From positions 38,136,001 through 38,200,000 of the forward strand of contig JARDYH010000005.1 in assembly GCA_029215795.1 (NCBI GenBank): a stretch of DNA of 64,000 nt. Direction: 5' to 3'. This stretch comes from Anniella stebbinsi (lineage: Eukaryota > Chordata > Lepidosauria > Squamata > Anniellidae). Both the position numbers and the translations under genes were made by a program. Below, one piece after another: positions 19,152 through 56,652 of this stretch; the first letter of the stretch is position 1; each line of letters opens with the position of its first letter. The notes under the pieces are model-generated. The model was not told the DNA's origin and ran no database searches. It saw nothing but the letters and a program-made list of their open reading frames with translations.

Positions 19152-19770
19152 GCCAAGATAGGCAAGAATTGAGCATGCAAGTTATTGGCCGCACCTCTTC
19201 AAGCACCCAGTTGTCAACACCCTTCTCAGGGTGAAATAACTGAACCTTACCCACCTAAAAGTGACTGAAAGGAGTTAAAGGAATGATTTGTACTGCGAAT
19301 TATGTGGCATAAAAGTCAGAATCAATGTGAGCAATTGCAACTGCAAGATGTTTTGTAAATACATCTGTGTGCCACCAAGGGGTCTGACAGACCAGGGAGA
19401 CACAGATGAAGATCCTTGACCACCCATTGTGCACAATGATGGCAGGTAAATAACCTCTTTTCATTTTAGAAGACACTAAAATATTTTTCTTCTCTTGTGT
19501 TCTAGCTAGTTCTTACTAGGGATGTGCACTGGATCGGACCCGATCCACGATCCGAGTCCGGTCCAGTGGGAAATCGGATAAATTATCCGATTTCCGATCC
19601 CGCAGCTGGATCGGCCGATCCAATCCGAACCGGTCCGAAAAGGCTCCGAACCGGTTCGGCGGATCGGCGGATCGGCGGGCGCCCACTGGCGCCCACCGCC
19701 GCTTCCATTGGCGGGCGCCAGCGGGCGCCCGCCGATGAAAGTGGACAGCGGGGGGGGGAGGAGGGGGGCG

Positions 19771-20910
19771 CTTACCTTCTCGGCCCGTCCGCTCCCGTCC
19801 GGCACTAGCAGCTACTACCAGCGGGCTCCGCGGCCTGCTCCAGGGTGGCGCGCCGGGTGATGTCATCACCCGGCGCGCTACTCTAGAGCAGGCCGCGGAG
19901 CCTGCTGGTAGTAGCCGCCGGCCCCGGACGGGAGCGGACGGGCCGAGAAGGTAAGCAGGGGGTGCGTGGAGGGGAGGAGGGGGCGCGCGGAGGGGGGGAG
20001 GGGGCCCTTACCTTCCCGGCCCGGCCGCTCCCGTCCGGCGCCGGCGACTACAACTACCAGCAGGCTCCGCGGCCTGCTCCAGGGTGGCGCGCCGGGTGAT
20101 GTCATCACCCGGCGCGCTACTCTAGAGCAGGCCGCGGAGCCTGCTGGTAGTAGCCGCCGGCCCCGGACGGGAGCGGACGGGCCGAGAAGGTAAGCAGGGG
20201 GTGCGTGGAGGGGAGGAGGGGGCGCGCGGAGGGGGGGAGGGGGGCCCTTACCTTCCCGGCCCGGCCGCTCCCGTCCGGCGCCGGCGACTACAACTACCAG
20301 CAGGCTCCGCGGCCTGCTCTAGGGTGGCGCGCCGGGTGATGTCATCACCCGGCGCGCTACTCTAGAGCAGGCCGCGGAGCCTGCTGGTAGTAGCCGCCGG
20401 CCCCGGACGGGAGCGGACGGGCCGAGAAGGTAAGCAGGGGGTGCGTGGAGGGGAGGAGGGGGCGCGCGGAGGGGGGGAGGGGGGCCCTTACCTTCCCGGC
20501 CCGGCCGCTCCCGTCCGGCGCCGGCGACTACAACTACCAGCAGGCTCCGCGGCCTGCTCTAGGGTGGCGCGCCGGGTGATGTCATCACCCGGCGCGCTAC
20601 TCTAGAGCAGGCCGCGGAGCCTGCTGGTAGTAGCCGCCGGCCCCGGACGGGAGCGGACGGGCCGAGAAGGTAAGCAGGGGGTGCGTGGAGGGGAGGAGGG
20701 GGCGCGCGGAGGGGGGGAGGGGGCCCTTACCTTGCCGGCCCGTCCGCTCCCGTCCGGCGCCGGCGACTACTACCAGCAGGCTCCGCGGCCTACTCCAGGG
20801 TGGCGCGCCGGGTGATGTCATCACCCGGCGCGCTACTCGAGAGTAGGCCGCGGAGCCCGCTGGTAGTAGCCGCCGGCGCCGGACGGGAGCGGACGGGCTG
20901 AGAAGGTAAG
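19771..20910. repeat. Five tandem palindromic units (about 240 bp period)
   Basis: Units at about 19771-19955, 20007-20194, 20247-20434, 20487-20674 and 20726-20910. Each starts CTTACCTT and ends GAAGGTAAG, is nearly self-complementary over roughly 185 bp, and is centred on GGGTGATGTCATCACCC (centres 19863, 20102, 20342, 20582, about 20818). Each half contains a stem-loop (AGCAGGC / GCCTGCT with a CGCGGA loop). Spacers are G-rich (GGAGGGGAGGAGGGGGCG, then GGAGGGGGGGAGGGGG). Units 2-4 are almost identical, pointing to recent duplication. Confidence 0.93.
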
Positions 20911-21051
20911 CAGTGGCGGGGCGCCAGCGGATGGAAGCGGACGGCCCCAGGGGGGGTAGGGAGCGCGGGGGAGGGGGCTTACCTGCCGGGGCCATCCACA
21001 GCGGACGGCCCCGGGGGGGGAGGGAGTTAGGCCCCCCCTCACCCACCCGCC

Positions 21052-21112
21052 GCCATTTTTTCCTCATAGACTTGCATTGCAATGCAAGTTTATGGGGGAA
21101 AAAATGGCGGCC
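21052..21112. repeat. Inverted repeat around CATAGACTTGCATTG
   Basis: GCCGCCATTTTTTCC, CATAGACTTGCATT, then AATGCAAGTTTATG, GGAAAAAATGGCGGC form a palindrome inside the hAT-like element. A sister palindrome with the same CCATAGACTTGCATTG word is at 56447-56508. Confidence 0.85.
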
Positions 21113-21264
21113 GATCCAAAAATTTACGATTTTTGGGTCGGGATCGGACTCGATCCGGTCCGGGGGGCCTCCGATTTTGTCCGAACCGGTCCGTGACAAA
21201 ATTGGAGGTCCCGATCCAGGTCCCGATCCGATCCGGGGGGTCCGTGCACACCCCTAGTTCTTAC

Positions 21265-25439: not shown

Positions 25440-25696
25440 CTAATGCCTAGGGTGACCAGATTTTGAGAACGAAAATCCCGGACCCCCCCGCCACCCCCCC
25501 CAAAACAACCCCCCCACCGCACGCCCGTGCCGCCCCCCCGCCCGCATGCCTCGCAACGCCCCCCTACCTGCCCCGCCCGCCCCCCTGCCTGCATGCCTCA
25601 CGCCGCCCGCCCCCCCGTCATCACCCGGCGCGCTACTGAGGGACAGGCCTCGAAGCCTGTTTCTCAGTAGATTCCGAGCACCGGAGGGAAGCGGAC

Positions 25697-26226
25697 TGTC
25701 GTGACTCTGTAAGTTCTAACGAAATGGTTAAGACAATAAAGAGACCCCTTAGAGGGAAAATACAATCCTTTATTATGCAAAAGACGATCCTTCTTTCTCC
25801 TCCAGCAAGTCAGAGGAAACAAGGTTAGGCAAAAGGTCCTTTTTGCCCCAAGGCTTGTTAGATAAGCAAGCGGTTCAGTTGAGTTTACTTAGAGAGAAAA
25901 AGAGAGCAGAGTCACATAATTAAGACGAATTAGCCTGTAGGGCTTTGTTTGCTAGTCTCTCTGAGCGGCAGGTGGTTTTAAGTTTGAAGTCCTTTCTCTT
26001 TGCCTTTCTTCGAGCCACTGCATTCTTTAGACCCTTTGTCTCAAAAGAGAAAGTACTCTCTGGCCGATTAAGGTCGTCTCCTTGGGAATTATCTCCCGCG
26101 TCTGCCGTGGGAAAGAGTTCTCCTCCTGGCACCAACTCCTCCGCCTGTTGCATTCCTTCTCCAGGATCAGAATTGCTGTCTGAGATTTCATCCCCTTGAA
26201 GCAGGGAATTGGACATAGACACAACA
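25697..26226 (-). repeat. 3' LTR (530 bp)
   Basis: Begins TGTCGTGAC and ends GACACAACA on the plus strand, so it is TG...CA on both strands. On the minus strand it has AATAAAGGATTGTATT near the poly(A) region and the R-start candidate CTCTAAGTAAACTCAAC. About 190 bp of U3 (25994-26180) is present here but missing in the 5' LTR. Confidence 0.93.
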
Positions 26227-26240
26227 CCATCCCCTCTCCC
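26227..26240 (-). promoter_or_regulatory. Polypurine tract
   Basis: Directly upstream of the 3' LTR in element orientation the minus strand reads GGGAGAGGGGATGG, the expected primer site for plus-strand DNA synthesis. Confidence 0.7.
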
Positions 26241-26630
26241 ATAACGCTTCCCCCCAGGAGAAATGCGCCCCGAACCTGGGGCAGGTTTATGGGGATAACG
26301 TTGGTGAAATTCACGGACTAATAGGGGGGCATGCAAATTTTCTAAAGGTTCCCAAGAACGTTCTTCAGGACCATAACCCTTCCAGTCAATTAAGTATTGA
26401 ATTTTGCCTCAGAAACAACGGGAGTCTAAAATGCCAGCTATTTCAAACTCTTCCTCTCCCTCCACCAAGACCAGAGGGGGAGGAACCAAATTTGAACGAT
26501 GAGGGTCTCCCGCTATGAGCAGAGAGAGCAAAGACCTGTGGAAAACTGGGTGAATCTTTAATGAAGGAGGAAGAGCTAACTTGAAAGCAACTGGGTTAAT
26601 CTGGGCTATAATTTGAAAGGGACCCATTCG
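26227..26630 (-). pseudogene. pol C-terminus: integrase tail and chromodomain
   Basis: In frame with the integrase core but separated from it by TGA at 26631-26633. It starts [18 protein letters not shown] and [20 protein letters not shown] text, the usual link between integrase and chromodomain. Then [10 protein letters not shown], a TGA at 26409-26411, and KIQYLIDWKGYGPEERSWEP, which carries the aromatic and acidic residues typical of a chromodomain that targets integration to modified histone H3. The frame continues into the 3' LTR. Both TGAs could be CGA to TGA changes by CpG decay; that is inference. Confidence 0.85.
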
Positions 26631-27398
26631 TCAAGGTGCAAGCTTTTTGCACAACATTCGTGAAGGAAAATGTCGAGTAGACAACCAAACCCAATCTCCA
26701 ACAGATAAAGAGGGCCCCAGGCACTGGTGACGGTCTGCCGCTATCTTGTAAGAAAGTTTAGCCTGTTCAATCTGGTCTTGAAGAATGTTGTGTAGAGTGT
26801 GTAGCTCTTCCAAGAACTTATCAGTGGCAGGAACCATAGCAGAGCCAAGGGAAGATGGGAAAGTCCTGGGGTGATAGCCGTAGTTGACAAAGAATGGGGA
26901 CTGATGTGTAGTGGAGTGGCAGGCATTGTTATAGGCAAATTCAGCTAAAGGCAAGAGATCAACCCAATTGTCTTGTTGGTAGTTAACATAGCAACGGAGG
27001 TATTGTTCTAAGGTTGCATTAGTACGTTCAGTTTGTCCATCCATCTGGGGGTGAGGAGCAGAATAAAGTTGAAGTTCTATGTGCAGCAGTTCTAACAATT
27101 CCCTCCAAAAATGGGCAGTAAACTGAACGCCACGATCGGAGAGTAATCCCTCTGGCCAACCATGTAAACGGAAAACATGCGTGACAAAGAGTTTAGCAGT
27201 GTCCTTGGCCGAGGGTAGACCCGTGCAAGGGATAAAATGAGCCATTTTAGAAAATAAATCCACAACCACCAGGATGGTGGTTTTGCCTTGTGACGAAGGC
27301 AAATCAGTAATAAAATCCAGGGAAAGTACTTTCCAGGGTCCCGCAGGCGTAGGCAATGGATGAAGTAAACCCGTGGGTTTACCTGGGACAGTTTTTGC
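26631..27398 (-). pseudogene. pol: integrase catalytic core
   Basis: The frame 26631-27356 encodes a DDE integrase core: first Asp in LSLDFITDLP, second Asp in LLSDRGVQF, Glu in DGQTERTN at the expected spacing of about 35 residues after the second Asp. YNNACHSTTHQSPFF and GDWVWLS follow as in other Gypsy integrases. The upstream zinc-binding part lies in the same frame but is cut off by TGA at 27399-27401. The core itself reads intact, so this is a recently decayed gene. Role in life: insertion of the cDNA into chromatin. Confidence 0.9.
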
Positions 27399-28142
27399 TC
27401 ATTGACAGGTATCACAAGAGGCTACATAGGAGGTGACATGATTTTGTACTTGAGGCCACCAAAAGTCTCGGGTTAAAGCCTCTAAGGTCTTGAAAATTCC
27501 AAAGTGTCCAGCTGTGCAGGAATCATGGCATTGCCGAAGGATCTTTTTTCTTAGAGTCTTTGAGGGGACATAGAGTTGGTGTCTGTGATGTAGGAGGCCA
27601 CCACGTAACGAAAACAAGGAGGATGGGGTAGCCCCTTCCTGCAATCCAAGCTGAGTCACTTTGCGGCGTACAAAGGGATCTTGAGCTTGTTCATGATGGA
27701 GTTCATCCTGCCAGGAATGTAAGTCCCCCACCGCAGCCAAAGTTTGAGGAGGAAGAATTGGCGGAGGTAGTGGTGTCTCCTCTCCCTCTGCAAAGTATTC
27801 CGGCTTATGGGAAAGCGCATCTGCTTGTTGATTTTCAGAAGCATGGACATGGCGTATTTTTAAATCAAAGCATGAGAAAAACCATGAGCATCTAGCTTGT
27901 CTTTGATTCATAGCTCGAGCTGTTTGTAAATAGACTAAATTGCGGTGATCGGTCCTAATTTCCACTGGGTGGAGGGCCCCCTCTAAGATGGGTCTCCAGG
28001 TTTCTAAAGCAGATTTTATGGCTAGAAGCTCCTTTTCCCAAATGGTGTAGTTCTTTTCTGAAGAGGTCAATTTTCGAGAATGATAAGCACAGGGCTGCAG
28101 TTCTCCTTTCTCCCCGCCCGGTTGTAAAAGGATTGCTTCCAA
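27399..28142 (-). pseudogene. pol: RNase H and integrase zinc-binding domain
   Basis: The 247-residue frame starts in the RT/RNase H linker (EAILLQPGGEKGELQPCAYH), continues through RNase H (YTIWEKELLAIKSALETW, IRTDHRNLVYL, ADALSHKP) and ends with the HHCC zinc motif of integrase (residues H..H then C..C in ASCDTCQ). It stops at a TGA immediately after CDTCQ. Joined to the RT part by a frameshift near 28145. Normal role: degradation of RNA template and binding of integrase to DNA ends. Confidence 0.9.
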
Positions 28143-28911
28143 AGCATATCGGAAGCATCAGTTTGCACAACAAAAGGGTTTTGTGGATTGGGATGGTGGA
28201 GGAGGGGTTCTGAGCTGAACAAATGTTTTAGTTTGTCAAAAGCCTCTTGAGCGGAGAGAGGCCAGTGAAAGGTAGCGCGTTTGCCCCTGAGCAAGTCAGA
28301 CAAGGGGGCAGTAAGGTTAGCATAGTTAGGCAAAAATTTTCTATAGAAATTGGCAAATCCCAGAAATTTTTGTAAATCCTTCCTGGACCTTGGGGGTTGC
28401 CAGGACAAAATTGCTTGTACTTTGGCGGGATCCATCTTAATGCCATGTGTGGAAATCTGATAACCCAAAAAGTCTAATGTAGACAAATCGAAAGCACACT
28501 TCTCCAATTTAGCAAAGAGACCAAATTATAAGCTCCCCTCAGGTCCAATTTAGTGAAAATCGAAGCTTGTCCCAAACGCTCTAACATTTCCGGGATGAGG
28601 GGGAGGGGGTACGTGTCACGGATCGTGGCCAAGTTTAACCATCTGTAGTCATGCATAAGACGGAGATCTCCAGAATTCTTCTTTACAAAAAAGGAAGGCG
28701 CCCCAGCAGGGGAGCTAGAAGGGCGGATAAAACCGCGCCTTAAATTTGTGTCCAGGAATTCCCGAAGAGCCTCCAACTCAGGGCCTGACATCAGATACAG
28801 CTTTCCCACAGGGATGGGGGCCCCCAGGATGAGATCTATAGCACAGTCATATGGTCGGGGGGGGCAGCTGATCCGCCTCTGTCTTGTCAAAAACATCACG
28901 AAAAGCGGCAT
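28067..28911 (-). pseudogene. pol: reverse transcriptase with deleted catalytic core
   Basis: The upstream piece (28535-28911) has the N-terminal RT blocks RPYDCAIDL, GFIRPSSSPAGAPSFFVKKN, LRLMHDYRWLN and FTKLDLRGAYNL (first catalytic Asp). At about 28534 the text jumps straight to LFAKLEKCAFD, so roughly 100 residues including the YxDD active-site box are gone. The downstream piece (28067-28507) carries FLGYQISTHGI, FLGFANFYRKFLPNYA and FVVQTDASD. The enzyme cannot be active. The deletion is visible at TTGGTC/TCTTTGCTAAATTG on the minus strand. Confidence 0.92.
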
Positions 28912-29491
28912 ATTTCTCTGGGAGAGCGGTAAGGGTGGAGGAGCTGAGGTGGCCGGAAGCTGCTAAAACTGGGGGCGGAAGAGTCAGATCCTGAGCAATT
29001 GGAAGGGGGGTTCCAGGAAAACAGTGCTGGCGACAATAGGGAGATGTAAAAAGTACTTGGTGATGTTCCCACGAGATTTGGGGGTTGTGTTTGGTGAGCC
29101 AGGACATGCCCAGTACAAGTGGGTACTGAGGCATCTTAGCAAGATGGAATTGTAGTTGTTCCTCGTGTCCTTGGGAACATAAGGTGATGGGAAAAGTAAT
29201 TTGGGTTATCGCTCCTGACAGGAGCGGATGGCCATCTATCGTCTCCACATGCAGGGGACGGGGCAGGGGCTGAGTAGGGACATTGTAGCGGTTGGCAAAC
29301 TGTACATCCATAAAATTTGTGGTCGCCCCTGAGTCTAGTAAGGGCAAAAAATCTCCACCTTTCCAATGAGAGGTGTGCAAACGTACAGGAAGGATGAGGT
29401 GGGGTGGGGGAGACGCGTGCGAAAGACTTACTCCAGTCGTTGCTGGGACCTCCTGATTACAAACCCCCATGAGACTTGGGGTTCGGTCTAG
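28847..29491 (-). pseudogene. pol: aspartic protease region
   Basis: In the same frame as gag, directly after its TGA. It encodes LPLLDSGATTNFMD, the retropepsin DSGA active site, then the flap region and YPLVLGMSWLTKHNPQI typical of Gypsy proteases, and ends in VFDKTEADQLPPP where a run of C (plus-strand G at 28857-28864) breaks the frame before RT. Would cleave the Gag-Pol polyprotein. Confidence 0.9.
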
Positions 29492-30407
29492 TCATGCCTG
29501 AGGAGCAGAAGCTGTCATAGGAGTTGGCTCTTTCTTCCACACTGGGGATCTGCAGGATTTCACATAATGCCCCTTCTTTCCACACTTGAAACATAATCCT
29601 TCTGCACGCCAGCAGGTCCTTTCCGCTGGGGAAATCAAGCAATGTGTGGCCCCTATTTGCATGGGAACTTCATCAGTTGCAACAGGAGGAGACCGCTGAG
29701 GAGGGGGAAAAGCTCTAGGAGGTATAGGAGGAGGTATGGGCCGGCCGACAGCTGCGTGTCTGGCATCTCTGCGACCCTCCAAGCGAGCATCTATACGTAA
29801 GCAGGAAGCGGTAAGCTCTGCCAAAGTTGCTGGGAGCGGAGACCGTGCCAACTCATCTAAGATATCTTCGTTGAGGCCTTCCATAAACTGGGCCTTATAG
29901 GCAGCATCATTCCACTGTAAGTCTTGTATAAGCAGTTGAAAATTGGTAATGTAGACAGCAGCAGAATCCTTCCCCTGGCACAGACGGCGGATTTCTCTGG
30001 TTGCAGTCTCCGTCCGAAGAGAATCTCCAAAAAAAGTTGCCATAGAAGTCACAAAATTTTGGTAATTGGTCAATAAGGGGCTATTTGCAATGAGGAGAGC
30101 TGATGCCCATCTTGCAGCCGCTCCGGAAAGCAGACTAATGAAAAATCCTACACGCACCTGGTCGGTTGGAAAATCGTCAGCTCTCAAACGCATGTAGAGC
30201 TCTGCCTGAGCGCAAAAAGCAGTAAAAAGCTTCTTGTCTCCATCAAACTTCTCTGGAAGGCTTACTGGGCATTTCCAACGTGGAGGCACCAGGGGGGGGG
30301 TGCTGCTGCGGTGCAGCTTGTAATGTAGCGATCGCCCCAACCAATTGATTCACCTGGTCCCGGAGAGCTTGGTTGTCATGGGTTAATTGATCAAGAGCCG
30401 CTTCCAT
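29492..30407 (-). pseudogene. gag, frameshifted, ends in TGA-CTA-G
   Basis: The likely start is the ATG at 30407 (MEAALDQLTHDNQALRDQVN, a short coiled-coil start). The frame breaks in a 9-10 G run at 30291-30300 and resumes as PVSLPEKFDGDKKLFTAFC, the capsid-like domain also found in domesticated sushi-derived mammalian genes (PEG10/RTL family). Near the end is one CCHC zinc knuckle, CFKCGKKGHYVKSC. It terminates at TGA (29492-29494) followed by CTAG, with the protease in the same frame downstream. Structural protein of virus-like particles. Confidence 0.9.
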
Positions 30408-30468
30408 CTTGCAGACGAAGAAAGAAAAAAAAGAAAAAACCACAAAAAGGAAAATCGAGAAAAAGGTT

Positions 30469-30486
30469 CTCTAAATAAACTCAAGC
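30469..30486 (-). promoter_or_regulatory. Primer-binding site, probably self-priming
   Basis: Just inside the 5' LTR the plus strand reads CTCTAAATAAACTCAA (30469-30484). Within the LTR the minus strand reads CTCTAAGTAAACTCAA (30669-30684), so the PBS could pair 15 of 16 bases with the presumed 5' end of the element's own RNA. No tRNA-type TGG start is present. This matches the Tf1/sushi self-priming scheme. Confidence 0.65.
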
Positions 30487-30847
30487 TGTTGTGACTCTGT
30501 AAGTTCTAACGAAATGGTGAGGACAATAAAGAGACCCCTTGGAGGGAAAATACAATCCTTTATTATGCAAAAGACGATCCTTCTTTCTCCTCCAGCAAGT
30601 CAGAGGAAACAAGGTTAGGCAAAAGGTCCTTTTTGCCCCAAGGCTTGTTAGATAAGCAAGCGGTTCAGTTGAGTTTACTTAGAGAGAAAAAGAGAGCAGA
30701 GTCACATAATTAAGACGAATTAGCCTGTAGGGCTTTGTTTGCTAGTCTCTCTGAGCGGCGGGCGGTTTTAAGTTTGAAGTCCTTTGAAGAGAGCAGAGTC
30801 ACATAATTTCATCCCCTTGAAGCAGGGAATTGGACATAGACACAACA
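30487..30847 (-). repeat. 5' LTR (361 bp, rearranged U3)
   Basis: Matches the 3' LTR from TGTTGTGAC through about 30783, then replaces some 190 bp of U3 by a 21-bp extra copy of AGAGAGCAGAGTCACATAAT, and rejoins for the last 42 bp ending GACACAACA. Confidence 0.92.
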
Positions 30848-31114
30848 CGGACGCCCCAGCAGGTAAGTGCCTCGCGCCGCCCGCCTCGCACCGCCCGCCT
30901 CCCGCCACCGCCGTGTGACCCCCCGCTGCCCCGGTTTGCCCCCGCCGCCCCCCCAGTTGGCCCGGATCGCCCCAGGGCCATCTGGTCACCCTTTTGGGGG
31001 GCTAAATTTCCAGATTTGGCCCCCCAAAACAGTTTCCCCCCCGGATGCGGATTTGCTCCCCATTTTCCGGGCATGTCCGGACAAATCCGGGCGGATGGTC
31101 ACCCTACTAATGCC

Positions 31115-55584: not shown

Positions 55585-56652
55585 TAGGGATGTGTATCGT
55601 ATCGTTACGATGGCCGATAATGAACCGATAAGGTCGTTATCAGACATCTGATTAACGATAACGATACGCAGTCCCTCAGGCCCTATCTGATCCGATCCAA
55701 CATCCATATGTCCGATAACTATCAGACATATTGGATTATTGGACCTAGGGCCAGTCCTCCCTCCCCCCTCCCACTCGCACTCCTTACCTGGGCCTTGTCC
55801 GCTGCTAGAAACTATCGAGAACTAGGCTTTGCGGCCTAGTTCTCAGTACAGTGCCGGCGCACCGGGTGATGATGTCACCTGGTGCGCTGACGCTCTACTG
55901 AGAACTAGGCCGCAAAGCCTAGTTCTCAGTAGTTCCTAGCAGCGGACAAGGCCCAGGTAAGGGGGACCCTTCCCTCCTTCCCCCCTCACGCTCCTTACCT
56001 GGGCCTTGTCCGCTGCTAGAAACTACTTAGAATTAGGCTTTGCGGCCTAGTTCTCAGTAGAGCGTCGGTGCGCCAGGTGATGGCATCATCCGGTGTGCCG
56101 GCGCTCTACTGAGAACTTGGCTGCAAAGCCTAGTTCTCCATAGCTCCTAGCAGCGGATGGCAGCGGACAAGGCCCAGGTAAGGGGGACCACTCCCTCCCT
56201 CGCACTCCTTACCTGGGCCTTCCCTGCCGCCCCCGCCCCATTGTACTGCTAAACAGGCTTTCTGGCCTGTTCACCAGTACAGAGCCGTGCCGAGTGATGA
56301 CGACATCACTTGGCACTTCTCTGTAATGACGAACAGGCCAGAAAGCCTGTTTAGCAGTACTACGGGGTGGCGGTGACGGGTAAGGAGCAAGGGGGGGGGG
56401 AGGGAGCGCAAGTGGAGGGAGGGAGGGAGTGTCGGCTCAGTGTTTGTCCCCATAGACTTGCATTGGGGGAAAGCTTTCTTTCCCCCAATGCAAACCTATG
56501 GGGAAAAACACTGTTATCGTATCAGAACTTCCAATATTTATCGGATTTCCGATCCGATCAAATCTGGGTACCCCTGATATGATCGGATCCAGAATTTTTT
56601 TATGTCGGAATTTCTGATAACTATACGATAAATTTGGACGTGCACATCCCTA
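55585..56652. mobile_element. GC-rich nonautonomous hAT-like element with three palindromic units
   Basis: About 1068 bp with ends TAGGGATGTGTATCG and GACGTGCACATCCCTA. AACATTTA occurs on both sides (55576-55583 and 56653-56660), offset 1 bp on the left. Subterminal zones are rich in CGATA/TATCG. Three palindromic units lie at 55783-55961, 55994-56182 and 56208-56384, each CTTACC...GGTAAG with two stem-loops around GTGATG...CATCAC-like centres. A further inverted repeat (56447-56508) shares CCATAGACTTGCATTG with the element at 19517-21256. Confidence 0.88.
56447..56508. repeat. Inverted repeat around CCATAGACTTGCATTGGGGG
   Basis: CCCCATAGACTTGCATTGGG, GGAAAGCTTTC and CCCCCAATGCAAACCTATGG form a nearly perfect hairpin; counterpart of 21052-21112. 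Confidence 0.88.

Follow-up and report, generated by a model that had tools for sequence, protein, structure and literature searches.

Palindromic units with outward-facing 5' splice-site motifs in nonautonomous hAT-type transposons: a candidate splice-signal cassette

We found that nonautonomous hAT-type transposons of diverged subfamilies contain the same internal palindromic module, in which the 5' splice-site consensus faces outward at both ends. We read this module, with a probability of about one half, as a palindromic splice-signal cassette. In this reading, sequence statistics underlie the 5' splice site; use of the sites and the mini-exon described below are inferred. A transposon of this kind may offer cells the same splicing signal whichever way it is inserted. 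The window, the whole stretch of 64,000 nucleotides that was analysed (C5:38136001-38200000), contains three carriers of the module, named e1, e2, and e3. The genome searched comprised 1.89 Gb in 91 contigs. The features of the window are as follows.

19517-21256, plus strand: e1, nonautonomous hAT-type element with termini TAGGGATGTGCAC / GTGCACACCCCTA and five palindromic units
19771-19955, unstranded: e1 unit 1, CTTACC...GTGATGTCATCAC...GGTAAG
20007-20194, unstranded: e1 unit 2
20247-20434, unstranded: e1 unit 3
20487-20674, unstranded: e1 unit 4
20726-20910, unstranded: e1 unit 5
20978-20984, minus strand: additional donor-like AGGTAAG in e1, closing a possible acceptor-exon-donor stretch that begins at the palindrome near 21094
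21065-21094, unstranded: second palindrome of e1, CATAGACTTGCATTG...CAATGCAAGTTTATG, with a polypyrimidine tract outside it on each strand; acceptor-like and inward-facing
25448-31106, plus strand: e2, hAT-type element interrupted by an LTR element; its termini (TAGGGTGACCAG...TGGTCACCCTA) differ from those of e1 and e3
25619-25696, plus strand: half module of e2, consisting of CATCACCCGGCGCGC, the hairpin CTACTGAGGGACAGGCCTCGAAGCCTGTTTCTCAGTAG, and the arm as far as AGCGGAC
25697-30847, unstranded: LTR element (TG...CA ends) within the e2 module, with the 5-bp repeat CGGAC at 25692-25696 and 30848-30852
30853-30869, plus strand: end of the e2 module, donor-like GCCCCAGCAG|GTAAGTG
55585-56652, plus strand: e3, hAT-type element with terminal TAGGGATGTG, CGATA-type subterminal repeats, and three palindromic units
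55783-55961, unstranded: e3 unit 1, hairpin centres at 55830 and 55913
55994-56182, unstranded: e3 unit 2, hairpin centres at 56041 and 56124
56208-56384, unstranded: e3 unit 3, hairpin centres at 56261 and 56341, right end GGGTAAG
56451-56500, unstranded: copy of the second palindrome in e3 (CATAGACTTGCATTGGGGGAAAGC...CAATGCAAACCTATG)

The first-pass annotation had described a layout that recurs in e1, e2, and e3, and both the layout and its coordinates were confirmed. The e1 units follow each other with a period of about 240 bp (TRF array at 19748-20913, 4.9 copies). The spacers of this copy are purine-rich on one strand. All eight full units of the window have outward GGTAAG at both ends, as had been claimed; seven of them have AGGTAAG twice, and the right end of e3 unit 3 is GGGTAAG. 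The split element e2 does read CAGGTAAGTG at 30860-30869. The window contains 23 AGGTAAG motifs vs 10.2 expected (100 shuffles, largest 19). The sequence AGCGGAC, which had been taken as a constant part of the module, is replaced by AGCCGCC at locus L015. The termini had been said to differ among the three elements, which is true of e2 only; e1 and e3 have the terminal TAGGGATGTG in common and differ in their subterminal repeats (GATCGG vs CGATA types).

Transposons of the hAT superfamily typically end in short inverted repeats of the TAGGG/CAGGG type. The carriers have terminal repeats of this type, either TAGGGATGTGCA / TGCACA[CT]CCCTA or TAGGGTGACCAG / CTGGTCACCCTA, and they are flanked by the 8-bp target site duplications of hAT elements. 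The duplication of the window e1 is GTTCTTAC on both sides (19509-19516 and 21257-21264), and among 21 e1 copies, 18 duplications are perfect, two have one mismatch, and one has three. The e2 duplication CTAATGCC is perfect on both sides, and the left copy of the 8-bp AACATTTA repeat of e3 is shifted by one base. A second element of the e2 terminal type is present at locus L055 (605-1444) with the duplication CACTGCCT/CACTGCAT. These features class the carriers as nonautonomous hAT-type elements. Among them, at least two kinds of terminal repeat occur (TAGGGATGTGCA and TAGGGTGACCAG), with closely related units inside. The earlier view that nonautonomous hAT-type carriers each contain the same module, and keep its outward 5' splice-site consensus in diverged subfamilies, is supported. 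A 2.9-kb element at L037 (6928-9825) was considered as an autonomous partner and rejected, as it has no open frame longer than 131 aa and its giant palindrome is of another kind. This hAT-type element, with the duplication ATCAAGAT, consists of a single long, imperfect palindrome that contains internal repeats and is GC-rich at its centre; it does not have the donor module. Another palindromic hAT-type element without the module was observed at L051 (501-1168; TAGGGATGAGCA, CGATA-type ends).

The module is present genome-wide. The core 22-mer pattern GTGATGNCATCACCCGGCGCGC gave 36,850 matches on the plus strand and 36,886 on the minus strand, counts in which a perfectly symmetric unit scores twice, and the reversed control gave none. 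The left end of e1 (30 nt, up to 2 mismatches) matched 13,199 places in the genome, with 0 matches for the control. The e1 sample consisted of 21 copies, namely 20 elements at places of core matches (L014-L033) and the window copy, with 1-10 units per element. Their 5' end (first 235 bp) has a mean non-CpG divergence from the consensus of 0.6%, and their 3' end diverges by 4.7% because L014, L017, and L030 have a different 3' end. At the divergence of its 5' end, the e1 subfamily is young and was recently active. Twenty 10-kb regions were placed systematically, and a half-module profile built from 11 window halves (E up to 0.01) found matches in six of them; sorted by eye, the matches belong to seven elements, one of e1 type (L049) and the others diverged. 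About ten diverged elements were inspected, all in one genome, and a single young subfamily makes up most of the e1 statistics. Beside a young e1 element at L018, a diverged copy (about 50-510) contains several hairpins of the L045/L054 kind. The 21-mer of the core also has an exact match in five IMG/VR contigs (L009-L013).

The outward motif was assessed in a hairpin-anchored test, where the donor was not used in choosing sides. A 38-column profile from 17 hairpins (E < 0.05) gave 36 distinct hairpins, none of them in e1 elements, and after one side too close to a locus end was dropped, 71 sides were available. MAGGTRAG ([AC]AGGT[AG]AG) was found within 95 nt on 36 of the 71 sides, vs a mean of 0.98 and a maximum of 4 in Markov shuffles (300 runs). 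These 36 sides have 32 distinct donors, four of which are reached from two neighbouring hairpins. Sorted by eye, the other 35 sides include 22 that face the core, 10 with a visibly altered donor (for example, GGTTATG, GGTAAA, GGGAAGG, and GGTACAT), one that is cut by an LTR element, and two that are neither. With the core-facing and LTR-cut sides set aside in this sorting by eye, MAGGTRAG is present on 36 of 48 sides. The splice-breaking forms MAGGTYAG, MAGGCRAG, and KAGGTRAG are absent from the same sides, MAGATRAG and MAGGTRGG occur once each, and MAGGTRAA occurs twice. Position -3 is A or C (CAGGTAAG 29 times, CAGGTGAG once, and AAGGTRAG six times) and position +3 is a purine; T at +6 is rare and not favoured. 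By these bases the motif is the MAG|GTRAG 5' splice-site consensus, with M at -3 and R at +3 included. A CAGGTA-type E-box (ZEB-type site) was rejected; AAGGTAAG misfits such a site, and the A or C at -3 means that it does not explain the donor motif.

The donors are concentrated in the elements, with a density of 3.81/kb inside (28 in 7,340 bp) vs 0.192/kb outside (37 in 192,590 bp). Nine elements chosen by hand as diverged, two of which (L037 and L051 501-1168) are without the module, contain 27 donors vs 1.2 expected and at most 4 in 100 shuffles. Among halves picked by the exact core CATCACCCGGCGCGC, GGTAAG is located 76-90 nt away in 168 of 171, a retention that says little on selection because nearly all of these halves are young e1 copies. 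For 38 donors, the exon side held the matching arm in 17 cases and the intron side in 13, with 8 ties, in a test that is crude and in which array neighbours match on both sides.

A basic unit consists of one palindrome, in which mirrored arms surround a central hairpin and MAG|GTRAG faces outward at both ends. The double unit of the earlier description is made of two of these back to back. Units occur singly or as back-to-back pairs. In a pair, the core arises from the two inner ends and has, in several subfamilies, the sequence CCAGGTGATG...CATCACCTGG or one of its variants. The closest hairpin form is CTACTGAGAAACAGGC-TKCGMA-GCCTGTTTCTCAGTAG, and the arms are subfamily-specific in sequence with their mirroring retained. 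The simplest unit is found in L054 (terminal TAGGGATGTGCA) and L055 (terminal TAGGGTGACCAG, like e2), where it reads CTTACCTGC, arm, hairpin, mirrored arm, GCAGGTAAG. The hairpin CTACTGAGAAACAGGCTTCGAAGCCTGTTTCTCAGTAG (up to 2 mismatches) occurs at 94 places, three of which, L054-L056, were picked by hand. In L034, L035, L045, L051, L052, and L054-L056, the subterminal repeats vary (GATCGG, GATACGA, and GATGCGA types), and the interior consists of the same kinds of palindrome.

The e2 unit and L054 unit 1 are alike despite their different termini (identity 0.94 in the hairpin arm and 0.85 in the middle), indicating that the module moved between families or that both retained an ancestral copy. 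Between the two arms of one palindrome, the middle identity is 0.91 in L055 and 0.79 in L054 unit 2. Over 36 pairs of half units, the middle has a mean identity of 0.66 (lowest 0.44) vs 0.84 for the hairpin arm, and the perfect donor identity in this comparison is a product of the selection made. A nested transposon bounded by CTTACC/GGTAAG was also considered and rejected; the palindrome of L055 extends beyond both donors (GGTAAGGAGCGCG), and no target duplication was seen there.

The first-pass annotation had proposed that pairing in the hairpins is kept while their sequence changes. We compared 17 distinct hairpins with 500 shuffles, through which relatedness persists. Pairing cells amount to 85.5% vs 81.4% in shuffles (0/500 reach this value) and 27-50% in slid structures, 13 cells are changed on both sides vs 7.3 in shuffles (2/500), and the covariation score is 0.195 vs 0.135 (0/500). 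The proposal is supported only in part, by these three measures; in the same 17 hairpins, four pairs have double changes and 14 pair types occur, both at the shuffle level (343 and 261 of 500). The covariation is modest, and palindrome copying could be its source. In the e1 sample, 12 of the 21 copies have multiple units (69 units), in which the halves of the same unit are 0.901 alike vs 0.876 for left and right halves of different units. Copying between palindrome arms is probably ongoing, since the halves of one unit are the more alike. Among tandem units, left halves are 0.961 alike and right halves 0.928. Palindrome copying and tandem duplication both fit the data, so pairing alone does not prove an RNA function. 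Searches in four sources gave no Rfam match for the module, and a known RNA family was ruled out on this basis.

The acceptor side is less uniform. In many of the copies inspected, the outward hairpin arm ends in CCTGTTTCTCAG|TAG, and in 22 donor-oriented hairpins, 7-9 of 10 positions in this arm are pyrimidines. The e1 hairpins have a poor tract (GCCTGCTGGTAG), and none of them passes the hairpin profile at E < 0.05. A second palindrome (GCCATTTTTTCCCCATAG|ACTTGCATTG), common to e1, e3, and diverged elements, has a strong acceptor score with human frequencies. At many loci, this palindrome appears as CATAGACTTGCATTG...CAATGCAAGTCTATG, flanked on either side by a polypyrimidine tract. It gives rise to possible acceptor-exon-donor stretches, 108-169 nt long, in L022, L035, L045 (two elements), and L052, and that of the window e1 is 107 nt long with an acceptor reading CATAA. 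Such stretches are not conserved. Of 18 e1 copies with the second palindrome (sorted by eye), 9 have a donor 106-108 nt from it, and a donor is located within 260 nt of 13 of 53 acceptor-like sites, which are mostly both strands of one palindrome and include two outside such elements. As a class, the acceptors of 10 scored elements show no excess over shuffles. Mismatches in the 22 donor-oriented hairpins are 31 G.T vs 9 A.C, a pattern that would arise if pyrimidines were retained in the outward arm or wobble pairs in the outward RNA. This asymmetry is only a hint because counting each kind of change once leaves 9 vs 5. The acceptor-like tracts suggest bidirectional mini-exons, a part of the reading that is weaker than the donor part.

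We hypothesize that the outward ends of the cassette would be recognised by U1 snRNP as 5' splice sites when the element sits in transcribed DNA. The pyrimidine-rich outward hairpin arm (CCTGTTTCTCAG|TAG) may act as a weak 3' splice site, in which case the two halves would each form a mini-exon of about 25-55 nt. The palindrome would give an identical signal in either insertion orientation. Most likely, the cassette arose from part of an older hAT gene, comprising noncoding exonic and splice-site sequence, and palindrome copying and tandem duplication would account for its spread and multiplication. A bolder version, which we consider rather unlikely, is a 'reversible mini-exon', an acceptor-exon-donor arrangement on both strands that is carried, exchanged between families, and multiplied by nonautonomous hAT transposons. 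Orientation-independent U1 recruitment and exon definition would aid the survival of such elements in transcribed DNA, for example by protection from premature termination or chimaeric transcripts, and the cassette rather than the transposon ends would be under selection.

The splice-like ends and hairpins may instead be inherited from an ancestral hAT gene without a present role, persisting through the youth of the subfamily at its expansion, palindrome copying, and tandem duplication. This explanation is possible, and we hold it doubtful. The youth of e1 (0.6% non-CpG divergence of the 5' end) is consistent with it, as are the greater likeness of arms within a unit than between units and the 0.961 likeness of left halves in tandem units. 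It also agrees with the loss of the donor of the acceptor-exon stretch in half of the e1 copies with a second palindrome (9/18 retain it) and with the frame from the core ATG, which meets a stop ahead of the donor in 131 of 177 halves. The divergence of the half-unit middle (mean 0.66, down to 0.44) beyond that of the hairpin arm (0.84) argues against it, as MAGGTRAG is nevertheless kept on 36/71 sides and 36/48 eligible ones, and so does the difference in subterminal repeats between carriers. A coding first exon was rejected from the same frames. The e1 core has an ATG on both strands, from which peptides start with MSSPGALL/MTSPGAPP; the frame stays open to the donor in 46/177 halves, and the commonest peptides end at codon 9.

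A DNA site for a dimeric protein is unlikely, although a transposase using internal copies of the subterminal repeats, or a host factor, could bind palindromic ends and centres. The palindromic form, the 1-10 units per element in 21 e1 copies, and the GC-rich sequence with a CpG o/e of 0.94 in the window e1 vs 0.36 in 20 systematic regions would suit such a site. However, the A or C at -3 and the purine at +3 resemble 5' splice sites, AAGGTAAG is not an E-box, and the presence of the unit in carriers with different termini and subterminal repeats does not fit recognition by a single transposase. The symmetry, outward donors, and high CpG of the window e1 would also agree with the bidirectional promoter proposed in the first-pass annotation, in which transcription starts at the centre and first exons leave at both donors. 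We judge this very unlikely, since the CRE/AP-1-type centre is not conserved; TGATGTCA is present in 5 of 13 cores and TGACGTCA in 0 of 13, and this centre was rejected as a conserved feature. The 13-mer GTGATGNCATCAC is found in the e1 core only among the 13 cores. Single units have the hairpin alone at their middle, and those at L054 1211 and L055 1170 are one palindrome around the hairpin without a CRE-like centre. In the 5' end of the 21 e1 copies, CpG positions also depart from the consensus at about five times the rate of other positions (0.028 vs 0.006), suggesting methylation; the 3' end, with its three divergent copies included, shows no difference (0.043 at CpG vs 0.047 at other positions). 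Hairpins that function as RNA, for example as small-RNA precursors, are highly improbable. The hairpin is retained in the subfamilies inspected, the double-change cells and covariation score exceed shuffles, and the outward strand has a G.U excess, but the hairpin sequence is conserved as well, double-change pairs and pair types remain at the shuffle level, and the four sources gave no Rfam match.

If the splice-signal cassette is used, one genome would have gained mirrored donor sites in the tens of thousands through the recent burst, whatever the orientation of each copy. It would serve as a natural large-scale test of the effects of intronic U1 sites on splicing, premature polyadenylation, and silencing, and as a case of an internal cassette common to transposon families with different ends. 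If it is not used, palindrome copying alone can maintain a near-perfect splice consensus in transposons, which would be a trap for exon annotation. U1 sites may be of benefit to the transposon. According to the cited passages, intronic transposons are a known source of RNA-processing and splicing signals and are suppressed by the host (SAFB/HUSH work, PMC10901741), and introns shield transgenes from HUSH even without splicing (PMC8770142). In the latter work, stuffers that had 5' and 3' splice sites and were effectively spliced failed to counteract HUSH (PMC8770142), which disfavours a simple escape from HUSH via splice sites and weakens one possible benefit. These passages deal with L1, Tigger, and LTR elements and transgenes, and palindromic donor cassettes do not occur in them (PMC10901741, PMC8770142).

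A description of a palindromic donor cassette was not found in searches of open-licence papers, and the papers matching the terminal repeat and core strings as text were, by title, not on transposons. Galileo is a fold-back, tandem-repeat-rich nonautonomous transposon. Fold-back transposons of this kind resemble the carriers in their long inverted repeats, internal tandem arrays, and variable unit number, whereas the terminals here are short hAT-type repeats and not the palindrome. We know of no conserved outward splice consensus in such elements. Introners are DNA transposons carrying splice signals that are excised whole as introns, with the sites at their ends. The carriers are likewise DNA transposons with splice signals, but their donors are located in internal units and point outward on both strands.

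The most similar known elements are Ds and Ds1 of maize. They too are nonautonomous hAT transposons with splice donors and 8-bp target duplications, and they are reported to supply host transcripts with donors and, in the case of Ds1, with acceptors (PMC5432752). In the cited passages, Ds has one donor in the forward and four in the reverse orientation, and Ds1 has three donors and two acceptors (PMC5432752). The Ds1 donors described there are within 35 nt of the end (PMC5432752), whereas the donors here bound internal palindromic units in mirrored pairs, with up to ten units per element. In e1, e3, and L054-L056, the outermost unit donors lie some 190 bases or more inside the element, unlike the near-terminal donors of Ds/Ds1. 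Use in splicing is reported for the Ds1 sites in the same passages (PMC5432752), and for the units here it is a prediction. Closely related units are found here in elements with different termini.
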